From positions 1-44,135 of IMG/VR virus record IMGVR_UViG_3300044574_000013: 44,135 nucleotides of DNA. One strand, given 5' to 3'. Below, piece by piece: positions 22,924 to 39,462 of the stretch. A program made the translations under genes and the position numbers. The DNA comes from a virus. Position 1 is the stretch's first letter, and each line of letters begins with the position of its first letter. The notes beneath the pieces were generated by a model. It saw only the letters and a list, made by a program, of their open reading frames with translations, did not search any database and was not told the DNA's origin.

Positions 22924-22998
22924 TGGCTGGCAATGGAGGGCTCGAACCTCCGACTTCCCGGTTAACAGCCGGGCGTTCTACCACTGAACTAATCGCCA
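22924..22998 (-). tRNA. tRNA-Asn (GTT)
   Basis: Full cloverleaf on the minus strand: 7-bp acceptor (TGGCGAT / ATTGCCA with one G-T pair), D arm GTTCAGTGGTAGAAC, 5-bp anticodon stem CCCGG/CCGGG around CTGTTAA (anticodon GTT), T arm GGAGG-TTCGAGC-CCTCC, discriminator G as in bacterial tRNA-Asn, and an encoded CCA end (22926-22924). Confidence 0.95.
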
Positions 22999-23001
22999 AT
23001 T

Positions 23002-23077
23002 TGGTGCCGCCAAAAGGATTTGAACCCTTGACCCGCTGCTTACAAGGCAGCCGCTCTACCAGCTGAGCTATAACGGC
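23002..23077 (-). tRNA. tRNA-Thr (TGT)
   Basis: Cloverleaf on the minus strand: acceptor GCCGTTA / TGGCGGC (two G-T pairs), D arm GCTCAGCTGGTAGAGC, anticodon stem GCTGC/GCAGC around CTTGTAA (anticodon TGT), T arm AAGGG-TTCAAAT-CCTTT with one G-T pair, discriminator A and encoded CCA (23004-23002). It lies 3 bases upstream of tRNA-Asn and is probably co-transcribed with it. Confidence 0.95.
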
Positions 23078-26692: not shown

Positions 26693-26994
26693 TGGCCTGA
26701 TACCTCTGTAGGTTCAACAATGTCGATGTAGTAGAGAGCCGTGGTGCAGGTTGAGTTCTTGCGGCGTCTGATCGTAGATGTTTTGGTCTTTCCGTCCGTC
26801 ATAGCCCGGAGCTGTGCGCCATTGATATAGCCAGCCATCTTGCGCTCGTTCTTGAACTTTTCTTCGCGCTCCAGGTTAGCCAGGCGGTGCAGGACGTGCA
26901 TTATCTCGGATACGCTGACATAGGCTTTCTCGTCACCCCTGCTCTGCGCCATCGACATTTCAGCGCGCAGGTAGTTTAGGTCTGGCTTGCTCAT
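26689..26994 (-). CDS. Hypothetical protein
   Basis: 101 residues from ATG 26994, overlapping the upstream stop (ATGA). N-terminal half is helical (LNYLRAEMSMAQSRGDEKAY), the middle is Lys/Arg/Glu-rich, and TKTSTIRRRKNSTCTTALYY is basic. It could bind nucleic acid but shows no known domain. Confidence 0.58.
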   Translation of the reverse strand: MSKPDLNYLRAEMSMAQSRGDEKAYVSVSEIMHVLHRLANLEREEKFKNERKMAGYINGAQLRAMTDGKTKTSTIRRRKNSTCTTALYYIDIVEPTEVSGQ

Positions 26995-27317
26995 GACTGG
27001 ATTCCTGCTCGGGATTTGGCGCAGGCTTGCCAGATTTCCCATTCAGATTTGAAGTAATAAAGACCGCCATCATCTAGAACACCGCTAACAGAAGAGCATC
27101 TCCCCATATCGTGCATAGCATTCGCAAACAGCTCGCGCTCTTTGGCTTCGTCGTAGGCTGGAATTTCAACAGGTGGAGCGGCTGAAATCATATCGGCATA
27201 TGCTTCTTTTGCCGCCGAAATCTCGGGAGCGCCCTTGGTTACCTCTCCCCAAAAACCCAATATCATTTCTTCAGTAGGATCTATTGGGACAATTACAAAT
27301 CCGCTTGGAATATTCAT
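26991..27317 (-). CDS. Accessory phage protein behind structured RNA element 1
   Basis: 108 residues from ATG 27317. Opens IPSGFVIVPIDPTEEMILGF, a recurrent start in phage accessory proteins of Pseudomonas and enterobacterial phages, and ends with YYFKSEWEIWQACAKSRAG. Its leader (27318-27331) and the last part of RNA element 1 are nearly the same as the leader of the 39226 gene (TTTTTTGTGGGT then GAAAATGA). No clear ribosome site other than GGGT. Confidence 0.6.
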   Translation of the reverse strand: MNIPSGFVIVPIDPTEEMILGFWGEVTKGAPEISAAKEAYADMISAAPPVEIPAYDEAKERELFANAMHDMGRCSSVSGVLDDGGLYYFKSEWEIWQACAKSRAGIQS

Positions 27318-27331
27318 TTTCAATTACCCAC

Positions 27332-27445
27332 AAAAAAGGCTTCAAGAAGACCGTCGCATTTCTGCGTTGGCGGACGGGGATTGGTTCCCGCACGATCTTC
27401 TTGAAGCCTTACCAATTTAATCGCCCGCCAAGGCGCTATGTACGG
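27332..27445 (-). ncRNA. Structured RNA element 1 (double-pseudoknot type)
   Basis: Minus-strand element of about 114 bases. Helix C is a perfect 15-bp stem (27396-27410 with 27336-27350) followed by six T. Inside it lie a GGGA/TCCC hairpin and CGCA-GAAA-TGCG with a GNRA loop. Helix B pairs an upstream segment (27422-27431) with the internal segment 27367-27376 over 10 bp (one G-T). ATTGGT (27416-27411) can also pair with ACCAAT (27385-27380). Helix A (27438-27445) is weaker: CCGT/ACGG plus CAT/ATG. The arrangement matches elements 2 and 3. Could also act simply as an attenuator upstream of 27317. Confidence 0.65.
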
Positions 27446-27484: not shown

Positions 27485-28255
27485 TTATTCGTCCAGCTCA
27501 TCTTGTGAGGATATTGAATGCTGCTGCTGCCACTCTTGGAACTTGTCCGTTTCCAAGGGCTTTAAGTCTGTCCACCCGGTGGGCCACCCCATCAGCCACT
27601 CTACCCACTCCGGGTTCATGTGGCCATTTTCTCCTGAGTGCGCAATAGCCCATCCCAACTTGTTCGGCTTCGTTCGCCCGTCTCCGCTGCATTGAAGTTT
27701 TAAGTCGTTCGATGCCGCCATAGCATTTGGAGTAGGCCACAATCCAGCAGCGATCACGCTGATGGGGCGCTCCAGTGTCGGATGCTGAAACAATGCACCA
27801 CTGCGCGTCATACCCCATTTCGGCAAGATCACCGAGCACCACGGCAAGACCTCTTCCCACAAGCAAAGGTGAGTTTTCCACGAAGACGACTCGAGGTCGT
27901 ACTTCACCGATGATTTTCGCCATTTCCCCCCACAGCCCGGATCTTGCGCCAGCGATACCCGATCCGTTACCTGCTGCGGAAATGTCTTGGCACGGAAACC
28001 CTCCCGAAACCACGTCAACAATTCCTCGCCACGGTCTTCCGTCAAAACTGCACACGTCAGACCAAATTGGGAAAGGCGGGAGAATTCCATCGTTTTGTCG
28101 TTGCGCCAGAACTTGTGCGGCGTAGGCATCACGCTCAACGGCGCAGATTGTTCGCCACCCGAGCAGGTATCCTCCGAGGATTCCACCGCCGATTCCGGCG
28201 AATAGGGCAAGTTCTCGCAAACCTCCATCAGTGCCCTGCTTATCAGCCAGCTCAT
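27485..28255 (-). CDS. Second-frame gene fully overlapping the methyltransferase
   Basis: 256 residues from ATG 28255, four bases inside the methyltransferase start and sharing its ribosome site (GGAGGAATT). It is open for its whole length in another frame and has protein-like, Trp-rich blocks that I recognise from phage proteins annotated near C5 methyltransferases: FSRLSQFGLTCAVLTEDRGE (58-77), LESSSWKTHLCLWEEVLPW (121-139), SVILPKWGMTRSG, GLWPTPNA (171-178) and EWVEWLMGWPTGWTDLKPL (216-234). The last block is the frame-shifted reading of the methyltransferase motif IX/X region. Function unknown. A chance frame is the alternative. Confidence 0.6.
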   Translation of the reverse strand: MSWLISRALMEVCENLPYSPESAVESSEDTCSGGEQSAPLSVMPTPHKFWRNDKTMEFSRLSQFGLTCAVLTEDRGEELLTWFREGFRAKTFPQQVTDRVSLAQDPGCGGKWRKSSVKYDLESSSWKTHLCLWEEVLPWCSVILPKWGMTRSGALFQHPTLERPISVIAAGLWPTPNAMAASNDLKLQCSGDGRTKPNKLGWAIAHSGENGHMNPEWVEWLMGWPTGWTDLKPLETDKFQEWQQQHSISSQDELDE

Positions 28256-28259
28256 TCAT
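27498..28259 (-). CDS. C5 cytosine DNA methyltransferase
   Basis: 253 residues. All core motifs in order: I LFAGIGGG (19-26), IV GGFPCQD with catalytic Cys90, VI VFVENSP (125-131, ENS in place of the usual ENV), VIII QRDRCWIVA (167-175), X ALGNGQVP (234-241). The target-recognition stretch between VIII and X is only about 60 residues, so the enzyme is compact. It would methylate cytosine in phage DNA, most likely to resist host restriction. No cognate nuclease gene is seen nearby. Start ATG 28259 overlaps the upstream stop (ATGA). Confidence 0.88.
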   Translation of the reverse strand: MNELADKQGTDGGLRELALFAGIGGGILGGYLLGWRTICAVERDAYAAQVLAQRQNDGILPPFPIWSDVCSFDGRPWRGIVDVVSGGFPCQDISAAGNGSGIAGARSGLWGEMAKIIGEVRPRVVFVENSPLLVGRGLAVVLGDLAEMGYDAQWCIVSASDTGAPHQRDRCWIVAYSKCYGGIERLKTSMQRRRANEAEQVGMGYCALRRKWPHEPGVGRVADGVAHRVDRLKALGNGQVPRVAAAAFNILTR

Positions 28260-30230: not shown

Positions 30231-30845
30231 CTATCCGATGATCTTCATAGTCGACTCAACCAGCGCCAGAAACTCCTTTCGCCTATCCTGAAGGCGCTTA
30301 ATCTCGTCTTCCATGCTACTGCGGGTAACTCGGTAGACGATGAGTTGCCTATCCTCTGGGAAGTCAGAGCAATAACTCACAAAGTCTACCCACTGCCGGT
30401 CAGAACAATCTAGGTGCCCAGCCAGCTGCCAGCGATACGACGGATCGAATGACCCGCGCTGCAATGTTGCATAATGTGTAGAAGCGATAACAGACTTGAT
30501 TTCGATCAGACCATCATCTCCAACGCATCCGTCTGGGCTGTCGCCATACTCGCCGCAATCGAAGAACCCGCCATTAGTTACTGTCACGAAGTTCTCGTCT
30601 TCGTACATCATTCTTGCGATTGGCTCCTGCTCATGGCCGCGATCCATATCGTCATTTTTGAAGCTGTATTCAGCTTTCCTGCCGGTGATACGCTCCAGTG
30701 CTATCTGCAAGGCATATCGTTTGGCCGGATCTCCAAATGCCTTGCCGTCATTCGCCATGAAGCAGGCGAAGTTCGAAGCTGTGGCGCGACCGCAACGCAG
30801 CGCAGCCCAAGCCTCAGAGTTCTGCTCGACGTCATGCCACATCAT
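30231..30845 (-). CDS. YqaJ-like viral recombinase (exonuclease)
   Basis: 204 residues. PD-(D/E)XK nuclease layout: GHEQEPIARMMYEDENF (70-86), GDSPDG with Asp105, IEIKS with Glu115 and Lys117, and a downstream Gln (RWQLAGHLDCS). Lambda-exonuclease-like enzymes degrade one strand of duplex ends for annealing. Start ATG 30845 has GAGGAG upstream; a second ATG follows immediately. Coupled to the 31347 gene, which is its probable partner. Confidence 0.85.
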   Translation of the reverse strand: MMWHDVEQNSEAWAALRCGRATASNFACFMANDGKAFGDPAKRYALQIALERITGRKAEYSFKNDDMDRGHEQEPIARMMYEDENFVTVTNGGFFDCGEYGDSPDGCVGDDGLIEIKSVIASTHYATLQRGSFDPSYRWQLAGHLDCSDRQWVDFVSYCSDFPEDRQLIVYRVTRSSMEDEIKRLQDRRKEFLALVESTMKIIG

Positions 30846-31347
30846 TTGCGCACTCCTCGATCAGCAGGGATTCATGGTCTTTAGAAATACTTAGGCGCGC
30901 CTTTACAGCATCAAGGTTGCCGTCGCGCTTATAGGCTGCCTTGGCATTGCTCCAGGCTTTTGAATTGTCTGGCGTAAGATATGCGACTACAGGCGCCTTA
31001 GGTCTGATCCGCAAGCCTTCCATGACCTCGCGTCCAAACTTAACATTCGAATCAACGTAAATAGCGACCTTGACGCCCTGCCAATCCTCGATAAACGGCG
31101 AGTTGGTGAGCGACTTAAGTGTCTTGCTGTTGGTCACGTTTAGGATCATAGGCTTCAGTTTTTCGCCCGGCCGGATCTCGCGCTCTGAAAAATAAGCGGT
31201 ATTGAAAAGATCCTTGGTCTTCTTTGTCTTGTCCGACTCAAGAACGACTCGGGCAATGGTTAGGATGGTTGGGCCGACGATATCGGCGCTACTCAGATAC
31301 GGGCTGTTGAAAGCCTTTTTGAAATGGGTTTTTTGATCGTTGCTCAT
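30832..31347 (-). CDS. Recombination-associated phage protein (partner of YqaJ)
   Basis: 171 residues from ATG 31347; the frame extends further upstream into RNA element 2, which is not expected to be translated. Pattern: KKAFNSPYLSSADIVGPTIL, EIRPGEKLKPMILNVTNSKT, FIEDWQGVKVAIYVDSNVKF and EGLRIRPKAPVV. This pattern recurs in phage proteins encoded with recombination or replication genes, possibly a single-strand binding or annealing helper. It overlaps the exonuclease gene. The function is inferred from position. Confidence 0.62.
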   Translation of the reverse strand: MSNDQKTHFKKAFNSPYLSSADIVGPTILTIARVVLESDKTKKTKDLFNTAYFSEREIRPGEKLKPMILNVTNSKTLKSLTNSPFIEDWQGVKVAIYVDSNVKFGREVMEGLRIRPKAPVVAYLTPDNSKAWSNAKAAYKRDGNLDAVKARLSISKDHESLLIEECANDVA

Positions 31348-31361
31348 GACTTTTATCCAAT

Positions 31362-31506
31362 AAAAAAGCCCTTTGATTGTTCGCTGGTTAGACTCCGAAA
31401 TTGGCTTGGATCGACGGCAAGTCAACCAATCCCGGAACAGCGAACATCAAAAGGCTCTATTAGCCGTCGATCCTGATTTGTCTTCGAGGTCTAACTCTCT
31501 CCAACG
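31362..31506 (-). ncRNA. Structured RNA element 2 (double-pseudoknot type)
   Basis: Minus strand, expected start near 31506, end at the T-run 31367-31362. Helices: A GTTAGAC (31495-31489) with GTCTAAC (31393-31387); B 11 bp perfect (31473-31463 with 31418-31408); C about 19 bp with small bulges (31456-31438 with 31386-31367); D ATTGGTT (31430-31424) with AGCCAAT (31406-31400). B' lies in the loop of D, and A' directly abuts C', so B/D and A/C both cross. A TATAGT -10 box precedes it. Six T follow helix C, then the 31347 gene after a short leader. Confidence 0.72.
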
Positions 31507-31512
31507 GGACGA

Positions 31513-31541
31513 ACTATAAGCAATGCAGCTCGCCGCCACAA
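31513..31541 (-). promoter_or_regulatory. Promoter for RNA element 2
   Basis: Minus strand: TTGTGG (31541-31536), 17-base spacer, TATAGT (31518-31513). The expected start is about 7 bases downstream, just ahead of helix A. It lies immediately upstream of the element and overlaps no other gene end except the short membrane peptide terminus. Confidence 0.6.
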
Positions 31542-35465: not shown

Positions 35466-35969
35466 TTATTCGGAAGTGCTGCCAAGCCATCCGCCGTCGG
35501 CAATCATCTTGCGCAGTCGCGCTTTTTGGGCGTCCCATGCTGCGTCCCATGCTGCGTCCCATGCTGCGGCCCATGCTGCGGCCCCCGCTGCGGCCCGTGC
35601 TGCGTCCCATGCTGCGTCCCGTGCTGCGGCCCCTGCTGCGGCCCCTGCTGCGGCCCGTGCTGCGTCATCACACAAACCATTGGCGAACTGCTCGGCAACA
35701 TCCAGAGCATCAAGACTGCGCTGGTCTGTCATCAGATGCTGGACTTTGCGGGCAGCCCAAACCGCGAACAGACGAAAATCACGGTCATGACCCTTGAATG
35801 CCCGAGCACACCACAAAGCATCATCCAGGCCGTTGCTGTCGAGAATGGTCAGCAGCGAAAGAGGCTCGTCGTCAGTCTTGGTTTTGCCGAGCGTGCCCAG
35901 CAGTTTTTGCCAGCCATCGGAGCACGGGCTGCATTCGCGTATTTCGTTGAGGGTGGTGGTGAAGGTCAT
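35466..35969 (-). CDS. Protein with Ala-Ala-Trp-Asp repeat domain
   Basis: 167 residues, start ATG 35969 with AGGAG upstream. The first 100 residues are globular (CSDGWQKLLGTLGKTKTDDE, LTILDSNGLDDALWCARAF). Residues about 103-147 are four-residue repeats of the type AAWD / AARA / AAGA, encoded by imperfect 12-bp DNA repeats. Such repeat tails occur in several Pseudomonas phage proteins; the repeats may form a helical rod. The C-terminus (RLRKMIADGGWLG) is again normal. Function unknown. Confidence 0.65.
   Translation of the reverse strand: MTFTTTLNEIRECSPCSDGWQKLLGTLGKTKTDDEPLSLLTILDSNGLDDALWCARAFKGHDRDFRLFAVWAARKVQHLMTDQRSLDALDVAEQFANGLCDDAARAAAGAAAGAAARDAAWDAARAAAGAAAWAAAWDAAWDAAWDAQKARLRKMIADGGWLGSTSE
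35531..35668. repeat. 12-bp imperfect tandem repeat inside the Ala-repeat gene
   Basis: About eleven copies of a unit close to GCTGCGTCCCAT (plus strand), with variants GCTGCGGCCCAT, GCTGCGGCCCGT and GCTGCGGCCCCT. As 12 is a multiple of 3, copy number can change without breaking the frame, adding or removing four residues at a time. Confidence 0.9.
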
Positions 35970-35996
35970 GGTGAATCTCCTGTTTTGGTACTGGCA

Positions 35997-36016
35997 AAGC
36001 CCCAGTTAAGGGGCTT
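35997..36016 (-). terminator. Hairpin after the 36204 gene
   Basis: AAGCCCC/GGGGCTT (7 bp, loop 6), followed by TTT on the minus strand. It lies between the 36034 stop and the ribosome site at 35976; probably a partial terminator or leader hairpin early in the leftward operon. Confidence 0.5.
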
Positions 36017-36033
36017 GAGGTGGTCGGGGATGG

Positions 36034-36204
36034 TTATTTTTGGAGGTCGGACTTTCGAGCCCAGCGGATAAGGTGGCCTTTGCCTGGTAGCGCGCATTGC
36101 AGCTTAATCAGCTGGCCATCGACTTCGATGGGGTCAGCGTAAAACGCCATGGTTGCGCCGTTGAAGCCATCAGGCAGTTCGATGATTTTGCGCTCGGTGT
36201 TCAT
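36034..36204 (-). CDS. First gene of leftward operon, 56-residue protein
   Basis: ATG 36204 (MNTERKIIELPDGFNGATMA) with GGAG about 10 bases upstream; an earlier start at 36291 would run into the promoter. Small beta-rich protein ending LIRWARKSDLQK. First product of the leftward promoter, so expressed early. Function unknown. Confidence 0.58.
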   Translation of the reverse strand: MNTERKIIELPDGFNGATMAFYADPIEVDGQLIKLQCALPGKGHLIRWARKSDLQK

Positions 36205-36249: not shown

Positions 36250-36278
36250 ACTATAGATTTTAGGCTCGAGCACGTCAA
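36250..36278 (-). promoter_or_regulatory. Leftward early promoter
   Basis: Minus strand: -35 TTGACG (36278-36273), 17-base spacer, -10 TATAGT (36255-36250). Strong sigma70-type match. Its -35 box touches the left arm of the operator at 36277. It would drive the accessory operon down to about 25 kb. Confidence 0.8.
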
Positions 36279-36311
36279 CAGGTATTTTCAATTAAATATG
36301 ATTGACCTGTT
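36277..36311. promoter_or_regulatory. Operator-like inverted repeat between divergent promoters
   Basis: AACAGGT (36277-36283) and ACCTGTT (36305-36311) are perfect inverted arms separated by 21 bases; CAAT/ATTG inside and GAGCA/TGCTC outside extend the symmetry. The arms overlap the -35 boxes of both the leftward and rightward promoters, as expected for a shared operator of the Cro-like protein encoded at 36365. Confidence 0.65.
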
Positions 36312-39044: not shown

Positions 39045-39072
39045 TTTACCGATGCGCGAGAATCGGTATACT
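39045..39072 (+). promoter_or_regulatory. Promoter for RNA element 3
   Basis: TTTACC (39045-39050), 16-base spacer, TATACT (39067-39072). CCGAT/ATCGG flank the spacer as a small inverted repeat. A start about 7 bases downstream falls just before helix A of the element, giving a transcript that begins with the RNA structure. Confidence 0.68.
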
Positions 39073-39078
39073 CAGCGA

Positions 39079-39211
39079 ACGGGTGTAGTAGCCCAGAGTT
39101 TATGGATCGAGGGTAGCAAAGGTTTAAGAGTGTGCCGTTCCTGTTGGGTTGAGTTCCCCCTCGATCCAGACCCAACAGGTCTACTACCGGCATACCCTTA
39201 AGCCTTTTTTT
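39079..39211 (+). ncRNA. Structured RNA element 3 (double-pseudoknot type)
   Basis: About 133 bases from the expected start to the 7-base T-run (39205-39211). Helices: A GTAGTAG (39085-39091) with CTACTAC (39181-39187); B GGATCGAGGG (39104-39113) with CCCTCGATCC (39158-39167); C 20 positions (39118-39137 with 39188-39207; one mismatch, two G-U); D CCTGTTGGGT (39140-39149) with ACCCAACAGG (39170-39179). B' is in the D loop; A' abuts C'. So the order is A-B-C-D-B'-D'-A'-C', two pseudoknots. Own promoter and terminator-like end suggest a free RNA. Confidence 0.75.
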
Positions 39212-39225
39212 GTGGGTGATCGAAA

Positions 39226-39462
39226 ATGAGCGAATGGATTAGCGTTGACGAGCAACTGCCTAAACTAGGCGAAATGGTCTTGGCTTCGGTAGCTGTAGGA
39301 TCGGTAATGGGCCGGAGCAGCATGGTTTTTATTTCGGGAATGATGCCTTCGGCGCATGGAGCAGAAAAAGAATGGCAGATGGAATCAATTCCAAAAATAT
39401 ACACGCCATTGCGAGTTACCCACTGGATGCCGCTCCCATCACCGCCGGAGGATTCAGAATGA
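39226..39462 (+). CDS. DUF551-like protein
   Basis: 78 residues. SEWISVDEQLPKLGEMVLAS at the start and RVTHWMPLPSPPEDS at the end are the two ends of the DUF551 domain, a small module common in phage early proteins. Placed right after RNA element 3; the leader (TTTTTGTGGGT, GAAAATGA) resembles that of the 27317 gene. Function unknown. Confidence 0.78.
   Translation: MSEWISVDEQLPKLGEMVLASVAVGSVMGRSSMVFISGMMPSAHGAEKEWQMESIPKIYTPLRVTHWMPLPSPPEDSE

Follow-up and report, generated by a model that had tools for sequence, protein, structure and literature searches.

Phages must time the reading of their early and replication genes. The CI RNA of phage P4 and the C4 RNA of phage P1 are immunity RNAs of the antisense type, acting on complementary leader sites, and the nested double pseudoknot of HDV has the strand order P1-P2-P3-P1'-P4-P2'. 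The known solutions that use RNA only are very few (HK022 put and IsrK). The put RNA of HK022, of about 70 nt and with two stem-loops, acts from early leaders on RNA polymerase and needs no protein to do so (PMC9378689). For IsrK of prophage Gifsy-1, a single promoter gives two products, a short RNA that is terminated and an mRNA for phage genes made by read-through (PMC4825925).

The window analyzed here is the whole IMG/VR virus record IMGVR_UViG_3300044574_000013 (44,135 bases). This phage carries three copies of an RNA that in many proteobacterial phages lies behind a promoter and ahead of an early gene and that, judging by its predicted anatomy, most likely decides whether RNA polymerase stops or reads on. 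One complex fold recurs in this way, with dozens of unrelated genes behind it, among phages of Pseudomonas, Burkholderia and uncultured hosts.

Architecture of element 2 and its relatives in the window

The sequence-only reading of element 2 had described helices in the order A-B-C-D-B'-D'-A'-C', with B' inside the D loop and A' touching C', then a T-run. This crossing arrangement is present as claimed and belongs to the minus strand, where the RNA runs from 31503 to 31362 and ends in a U-run. Its parts, with the promoter hexamers and the following gene, are:

31536..31541, minus strand: -35 hexamer TTGTGG, read directly, with a 17-nt spacer to TATAGT
31513..31518, minus strand: -10 hexamer TATAGT, read directly
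31486..31499, minus strand: P0 hairpin GAG-AGUUAGAC-CUC, with GAG at 31499-31497 and CUC at 31488-31486
31489..31495, minus strand: strand A, GUUAGAC, kissing A' (31387-31393) over 7 bp
31463..31473, minus strand: strand B, GGAUCGACGGC, pairing with B' in the D loop (11 bp, perfect)
31438..31458, minus strand: 5' arm of C, the putative terminator stem (about 20 bp, one bulge)
31424..31435, minus strand: 5' arm of D (10-13 bp including G-U pairs)
31408..31418, minus strand: strand B', from the class I/II covariation alignment
31395..31407, minus strand: 3' arm of D, from the same alignment
31387..31393, minus strand: strand A', GUCUAAC, adjoining the 3' arm of C with zero gap
31366..31386, minus strand: 3' arm of C, from the same alignment
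31362..31367, minus strand: terminator U-run, from the sequence
30832..31347, minus strand: gene directly behind element 2, encoding a 171-aa protein (phrog_21613), followed by a RecE-like exonuclease

Both A (7 bp) and the perfect B (11 bp) were found as described, and their crossing combination arose in 3 of 20,000 dinucleotide shuffles of element 2; the nested C-D hairpin alone has z = -5.4 against shuffles. Helix C, previously put at about 19 bp, measures about 20 bp, and helix D is likewise real, but the 7 bp assigned to it were too few. The TTGTGG-17-TATAGT pair noticed upstream is in place at 31541-31513; its -35 hexamer scores below the threshold of the consensus promoter scan and is absent from the list of that scan. 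Transcription is predicted to start at about 31506, immediately ahead of P0. This 5' hairpin, which the earlier reading had missed, belongs to the fold, and its 8-nt loop is made of one extra base and the entire strand A. RNA of the plus strand was rejected as an alternative, since it folds worse (z of -1.6 versus -4.0 for the minus strand, 171 nt) and its covariance-model scores are low. In phage Orisa the gene at the position matching the phrog_21613 gene is annotated as similar to P07 of Xanthomonas phage phiL7.

The window holds two relatives of element 2, at 39080-39211 (plus strand) and 27332-27438 (minus strand):

39045..39072, plus strand: predicted element 3 promoter TTTACC-16-TATACT, from the promoter scan
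39080..39211, plus strand: element 3 (class II), P0 loop UGUAGUAG, ending in a U-run
39103-39113 with 39158-39168, plus strand: element 3 helix B, UGGAUCGAGGG
39118-39137 with 39188-39207, plus strand: element 3 helix C
39140-39150 with 39169-39179, plus strand: element 3 helix D
39181-39187, plus strand: element 3 strand A'
39226..39462, plus strand: gene behind element 3, encoding a DUF551 protein (PF04448)
27332..27438, minus strand: element 1 (class III), P0 loop CUUGGCGG, ending in a U-run
27411-27416 with 27380-27385, minus strand: element 1 helix B, AUUGGU
27392-27410 with 27336-27354, minus strand: element 1 helix C
27367-27373, minus strand: element 1 strand A', CCGCCAA
27355-27366, minus strand: element 1 extra hairpin, CGCAGAAAUGCG
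26991..27314, minus strand: gene behind element 1 (phrog_5913, no known function)

No evident promoter was seen for element 1 in the window. Among other features of this DNA, the region 36250-36310 is a divergent early promoter region, with minus-strand TTGACG-17-TATAGT, which separates the leftward genes from a Cro-like gene, behind which lie O-like and DnaC-like replication genes. The stretch 35966-36038 includes 50-63 bp that are 86-96% identical to the otherwise unrelated Pseudomonas phages PfAn1, Torfinnsbu and phiPto-bp6g, and contains a GCCCC/GGGGC terminator-like hairpin. On the minus strand, a tRNA-Asn(gtt) and tRNA-Thr(tgt) pair at 22924-23077 is 92.5% identical to Pseudomonas phage HU1, and a DNA methyltransferase gene (phrog_363) occupies 27501-28259; phages of Salmonella, Klebsiella and Acinetobacter have DNA methyltransferase genes that match the sequence at 27.7-28.2 kb with about 79-87% identity, an unusually broad sharing.

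Relatives in other phages and covariation of the fold

Homologues of the elements occur in Pseudomonas phages Orisa and AH02, in Bcep22-like Burkholderia phages and in more than 100 viral contigs. Element 2 was found by blastn in Pseudomonas phages Orisa01-03, and pattern scans of viral contigs detected class I or II elements in nine records and in the record of locus L012; in the six longest of those records a covariance model placed two class I/II elements apiece. Starting from the element at 27.4 kb, the search reached Burkholderia phage BcepMigl and, through it, a third class (III), distinguished by a tetraloop hairpin between A' and C'. At least 119 stretches matched in the class III scan, where by our own estimate about five would be expected, and its named carriers are the Bcep22-like phages BcepMigl, DC1, CSP3 and BcepIL02 and Pseudomonas phage AH02. 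When 1.36 Mb was scanned for P0, A:A', C and the T-run, 91 elements came up; these sequences read backwards gave none.

In bacterial genomes the matches stayed at chance level. The GTDB scan for class I/II gave five, a number expected by chance, with no Pseudomonas among them, and one of these matches (L018) reached only 15.6 bits with the covariance model; for class III, two matches, likewise chance-like, came from 398 Pseudomonadota genomes. The family thus looks phage-borne, and a host or prophage origin was rejected on these grounds. At the gathering thresholds of Rfam 15 the whole window and 17 related loci matched nothing but two tRNAs, and permissive thresholds gave weak, implausible matches only. 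Literature searches, with subscription journals and preprints mostly outside their coverage, found no description of the knotted RNA. This suggests that the leader RNA was previously uncatalogued, an earlier description being possible.

The overall layout of the family is P0(A)-B-C-D(B')-A'-[hairpin]-C'-U-run, the bracketed hairpin being absent in class I/II. In all relatives strand A is the content of the P0 loop and not a free single strand, as in GGC-CGUGGAAC-GCC of phage Orisa, CGGG-UGUAGUAG-CCC of element 3 and CGC-CUUGGCGG-GCG of element 1; U-N-R at positions 3-5 is common to these loops. Since A lies inside an 8-nt loop, A:A' is a 7-bp kissing helix. In the Orisa elements A is changed to GUGGAAC and its partner to GUUCCAC. 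One record (G425; loci L197, L212 and L214) has three elements whose loops UUGGCGG, UUGGCAG and UUGGCCG differ by one base, each with the matching A'. Another (G005; locus L055, 9638 and 8350, minus strand) has two class I-like elements, co-directional and 1.3 kb apart, with A loops GUGGAAC and GUGAGAA.

The sequence-only reading had held that shape rather than sequence is kept, and had proposed a search of related phages for compensatory changes in A and B. That search revealed massive compensatory change across phages in every helix. In the alignment of 10 class I/II sequences 92.8% of cells are paired; 77 are double-changed, compared with 26 for shuffles and no more than 12 when the partners are slid. 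All 70 cells of helix A are paired, with 17 double changes (shuffles 4.6 +/- 1.7, slid partners 0) and compensatory changes at 4 of its 7 pairs. P0 is paired in 10 of 10 homologues and shows compensatory changes at 2 of 3 pairs, as do 8 of the 13 pairs of D; in C, 10 of 15 counted pairs covary and 100% of cells are paired. Helix B has CG/GC covariation at one pair, its other pairs being conserved. Homologues without A and B pairing, named beforehand as counting against the fold, were not met for A, which every aligned homologue retains, or for B in class I/II, where 10 of the 11 B pairs form in all sequences, the last failing in four. The U-run is kept in all aligned homologues.

The class III alignment (51 sequences) is 93.4% paired. 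It has 505 double-changed cells, where shuffling gives 141 +/- 10 and sliding the partners never more than 134. Covariation is seen in P0, B, C, D and the extra hairpin alike, and helix B is 5-8 bp long in 48 of the 51. Strand A is constant in this alignment because the search pattern fixed it, and the variants met incidentally (UUGGAAU, UUGGUCG, UUGGCCG and UUGGCAG) each have a matching A'. Departures from pairing are mostly G-U rather than A-C in class I/II (22:1) and lean towards G-U in class III (77:46), and a U-G pair in C is conserved in 10 of 10 class I/II sequences. Together, the covariation in every helix and the preference for G-U speak for a folded RNA with the sense of the element strand. 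Constant sequence is almost nil, nearly all conserved features being pairing, and no single-stranded ligand pocket is conserved except GC or UU at the C/D junction. The original observation is confirmed and its interpretation supported, and for the fold of element 2 we regard the cross-phage covariation as decisive.

Promoters, terminators and the genes behind the elements

Of 84 distinct upstream regions in class III, 49 have their best match to TATAAT 14-16 bases ahead of CCTTGG, and TTG is enriched at the -35 place. With this fixed -10 position and the TTG enrichment, a sigma-70-like promoter should start the RNA of the common class at the first base of P0. At the other end, a start codon follows the U-run by 7-20 nt in 83 of 101 loci, as compared with 6 of 24 other terminator-like hairpins on the same contigs, a closeness that could come partly from the compactness of phage genomes. 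A further correction to the sequence-only account is the close tie between the element and the following gene. A stem and a U-run in a 5' leader with a nearby start codon have the sequence anatomy of an attenuator. The gap of 7-20 nt leaves little room for a second promoter, which is thus unlikely, so that expression of the gene would need read-through; judging from the map, the downstream genes probably depend on it, an argument that covers the gap and not a promoter overlapping C'.

The 96 proteins encoded behind elements fall into 38 unrelated clusters, and hence the conserved thing is the unit and not the gene. Replication genes are frequent: the largest cluster (39 proteins) is of DUF1376/replication type, the next is a small HTH_39 protein, and in BcepIL02 the element is followed by an HTH gene, an O-like initiator and a DnaC-like loader. 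Many single-case first genes after class III elements are HNH or GIY-YIG endonuclease-like (among them L088, L100, L112, L128, L144, L165 and L174), several of them followed by a replication gene. A homing-endonuclease cassette, suggested by these cases, was rejected, as other genes follow most often. The most economical reading suggests a portable combination of promoter, pseudoknotted conditional terminator and start site.

Gated termination and its alternatives

The explanation that we favor, with some reserve, is an early-gene leader RNA working as a promoter-proximal, pseudoknot-gated conditional terminator, that is, an attenuator or antitermination leader. RNA polymerase would start at the adjacent promoter and make an RNA of 105-145 nt, in which P0 would fold first, then D, whose loop would pair with the upstream B, and then A' with the P0 loop. 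P0, D, B:B' and A:A' could all be ready before the 3' arm of C emerges. Helix C would be an intrinsic terminator immediately ahead of the ribosome-binding site of the next gene: its full closure would stop transcription and release a short stable RNA, and a delay of closure by the pseudoknots or by a bound factor would let the polymerase enter the gene. Beyond the fold, covariation, strand, class III promoter position and terminator-to-gene spacing, which the comparison of sequences establishes, the proposal implies that C would terminate in vivo, that read-through would be needed and that the pseudoknots would control it. Helices A and B, which cross C, are able to form while C' is still unmade, and this makes them a natural gate. 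In class III no more than one base separates B from C, and on this geometric argument B and the lower, U-run-side half of C are probably mutually exclusive. The longer B and D of class I/II, together with a linker, could let all helices coexist with full C, so that element 2 need not be a simple either-or switch. A strict two-bundle geometry was dropped as a family-wide rule, B and D lengths differing between the classes.

The main rival holds that the product itself is the agent, a trans-acting stable sRNA of 105-145 nt with helix-locked ends that would bind a host or phage protein or RNA, the gene being read by occasional read-through. We find this possible yet rather doubtful. RNA ends that match the fold, with the predicted start at P0 and a strong terminator, suit it, as do the copies in one phage (G425) with different A loops and matching A', as if cross-pairing were avoided, and IsrK is a precedent, with its one promoter for a short RNA and a read-through mRNA (PMC4825925). 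Action in trans only would, however, leave unexplained why most loci keep a codirectional start codon at a fixed distance; moreover, the loop sequences vary, and no constant target is visible. Processive antitermination of the HK022 put type, in which the leader would bind RNA polymerase and carry it past its own and later terminators, is an unlikely alternative to gated termination in spite of the promoter-proximal position, several copies per genome and early operons, and of the window's own layout, where elements 2 and 1 lie in the path of leftward early transcripts and element 3 in that of rightward ones. The put RNA has about 70 nt and two stem-loops and acts on terminators further on (PMC9378689), whereas here the terminator lies within the fold.

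Two further possibilities carry little weight. That the inverted repeats serve a protein or replication at the DNA level, RNA pairing being incidental, would fit elements adjoining replication genes, as they often do; the crossing single-strand topology, the U-G pair in C in 10 of 10 sequences, the excess of G-U over A-C and the placement of promoter and terminator make it very improbable. A self-cleaving ribozyme of HDV-like topology is more improbable still. The order A-C-D-A'-(hairpin)-C' does match that of HDV, but A sits in the P0 loop, C' comes directly after A' (class I/II) or after the hairpin (class III) with no room for a catalytic joining strand, and the Rfam HDV models give no match. 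This candidate was rejected as similar in topology only, the J4/2 strand with the catalytic C between P4 and P2' being absent.

We would put forward only tentatively that the elements may form a widespread, undescribed class of phage antitermination or attenuation RNA, locked by a kissing loop and closed by a helix that is the terminator, a portable promoter-switch-terminator-start cassette before unrelated early genes with its own loop code in each copy. If gated termination is true, the element would be a portable part for gene regulation and would serve as a test of how co-transcriptional pseudoknots beat or permit terminators; if action in trans is true, it would represent an abundant class of phage RNA.

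Compared with described systems, the elements would resemble IsrK in giving both a short terminated RNA and a read-through mRNA from one promoter; IsrK differs in being a single locus, and its abstract mentions no comparable pseudoknots (PMC4825925). Neither IsrK nor put is known to have the fold seen here. With putL and putR of HK022 they share structured, promoter-proximal phage RNA, more than one copy per genome, early operons and terminators in the path, and they differ in having a kissing loop, two crossing helices, 105-145 nt and a terminator in the fold in place of two stem-loops. Like attenuators and riboswitch expression platforms, they place a putative intrinsic terminator right in front of the ribosome-binding site of the gene that they would control; unlike these, they have no conserved ligand-binding sequence. 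HDV-like ribozymes have in common with them the nested double pseudoknot, a 7-bp P1, P2, P3 and, in class III, a P4-like hairpin, whereas here the catalytic joining strand is absent, the 5' strand of P1 is in a hairpin loop, helix B is extra and P2 is the putative terminator. With P4 CI and P1 C4 they would share control of early or replication operons by a phage RNA through premature termination, and they differ from these in that the pairing partners lie within the same RNA.
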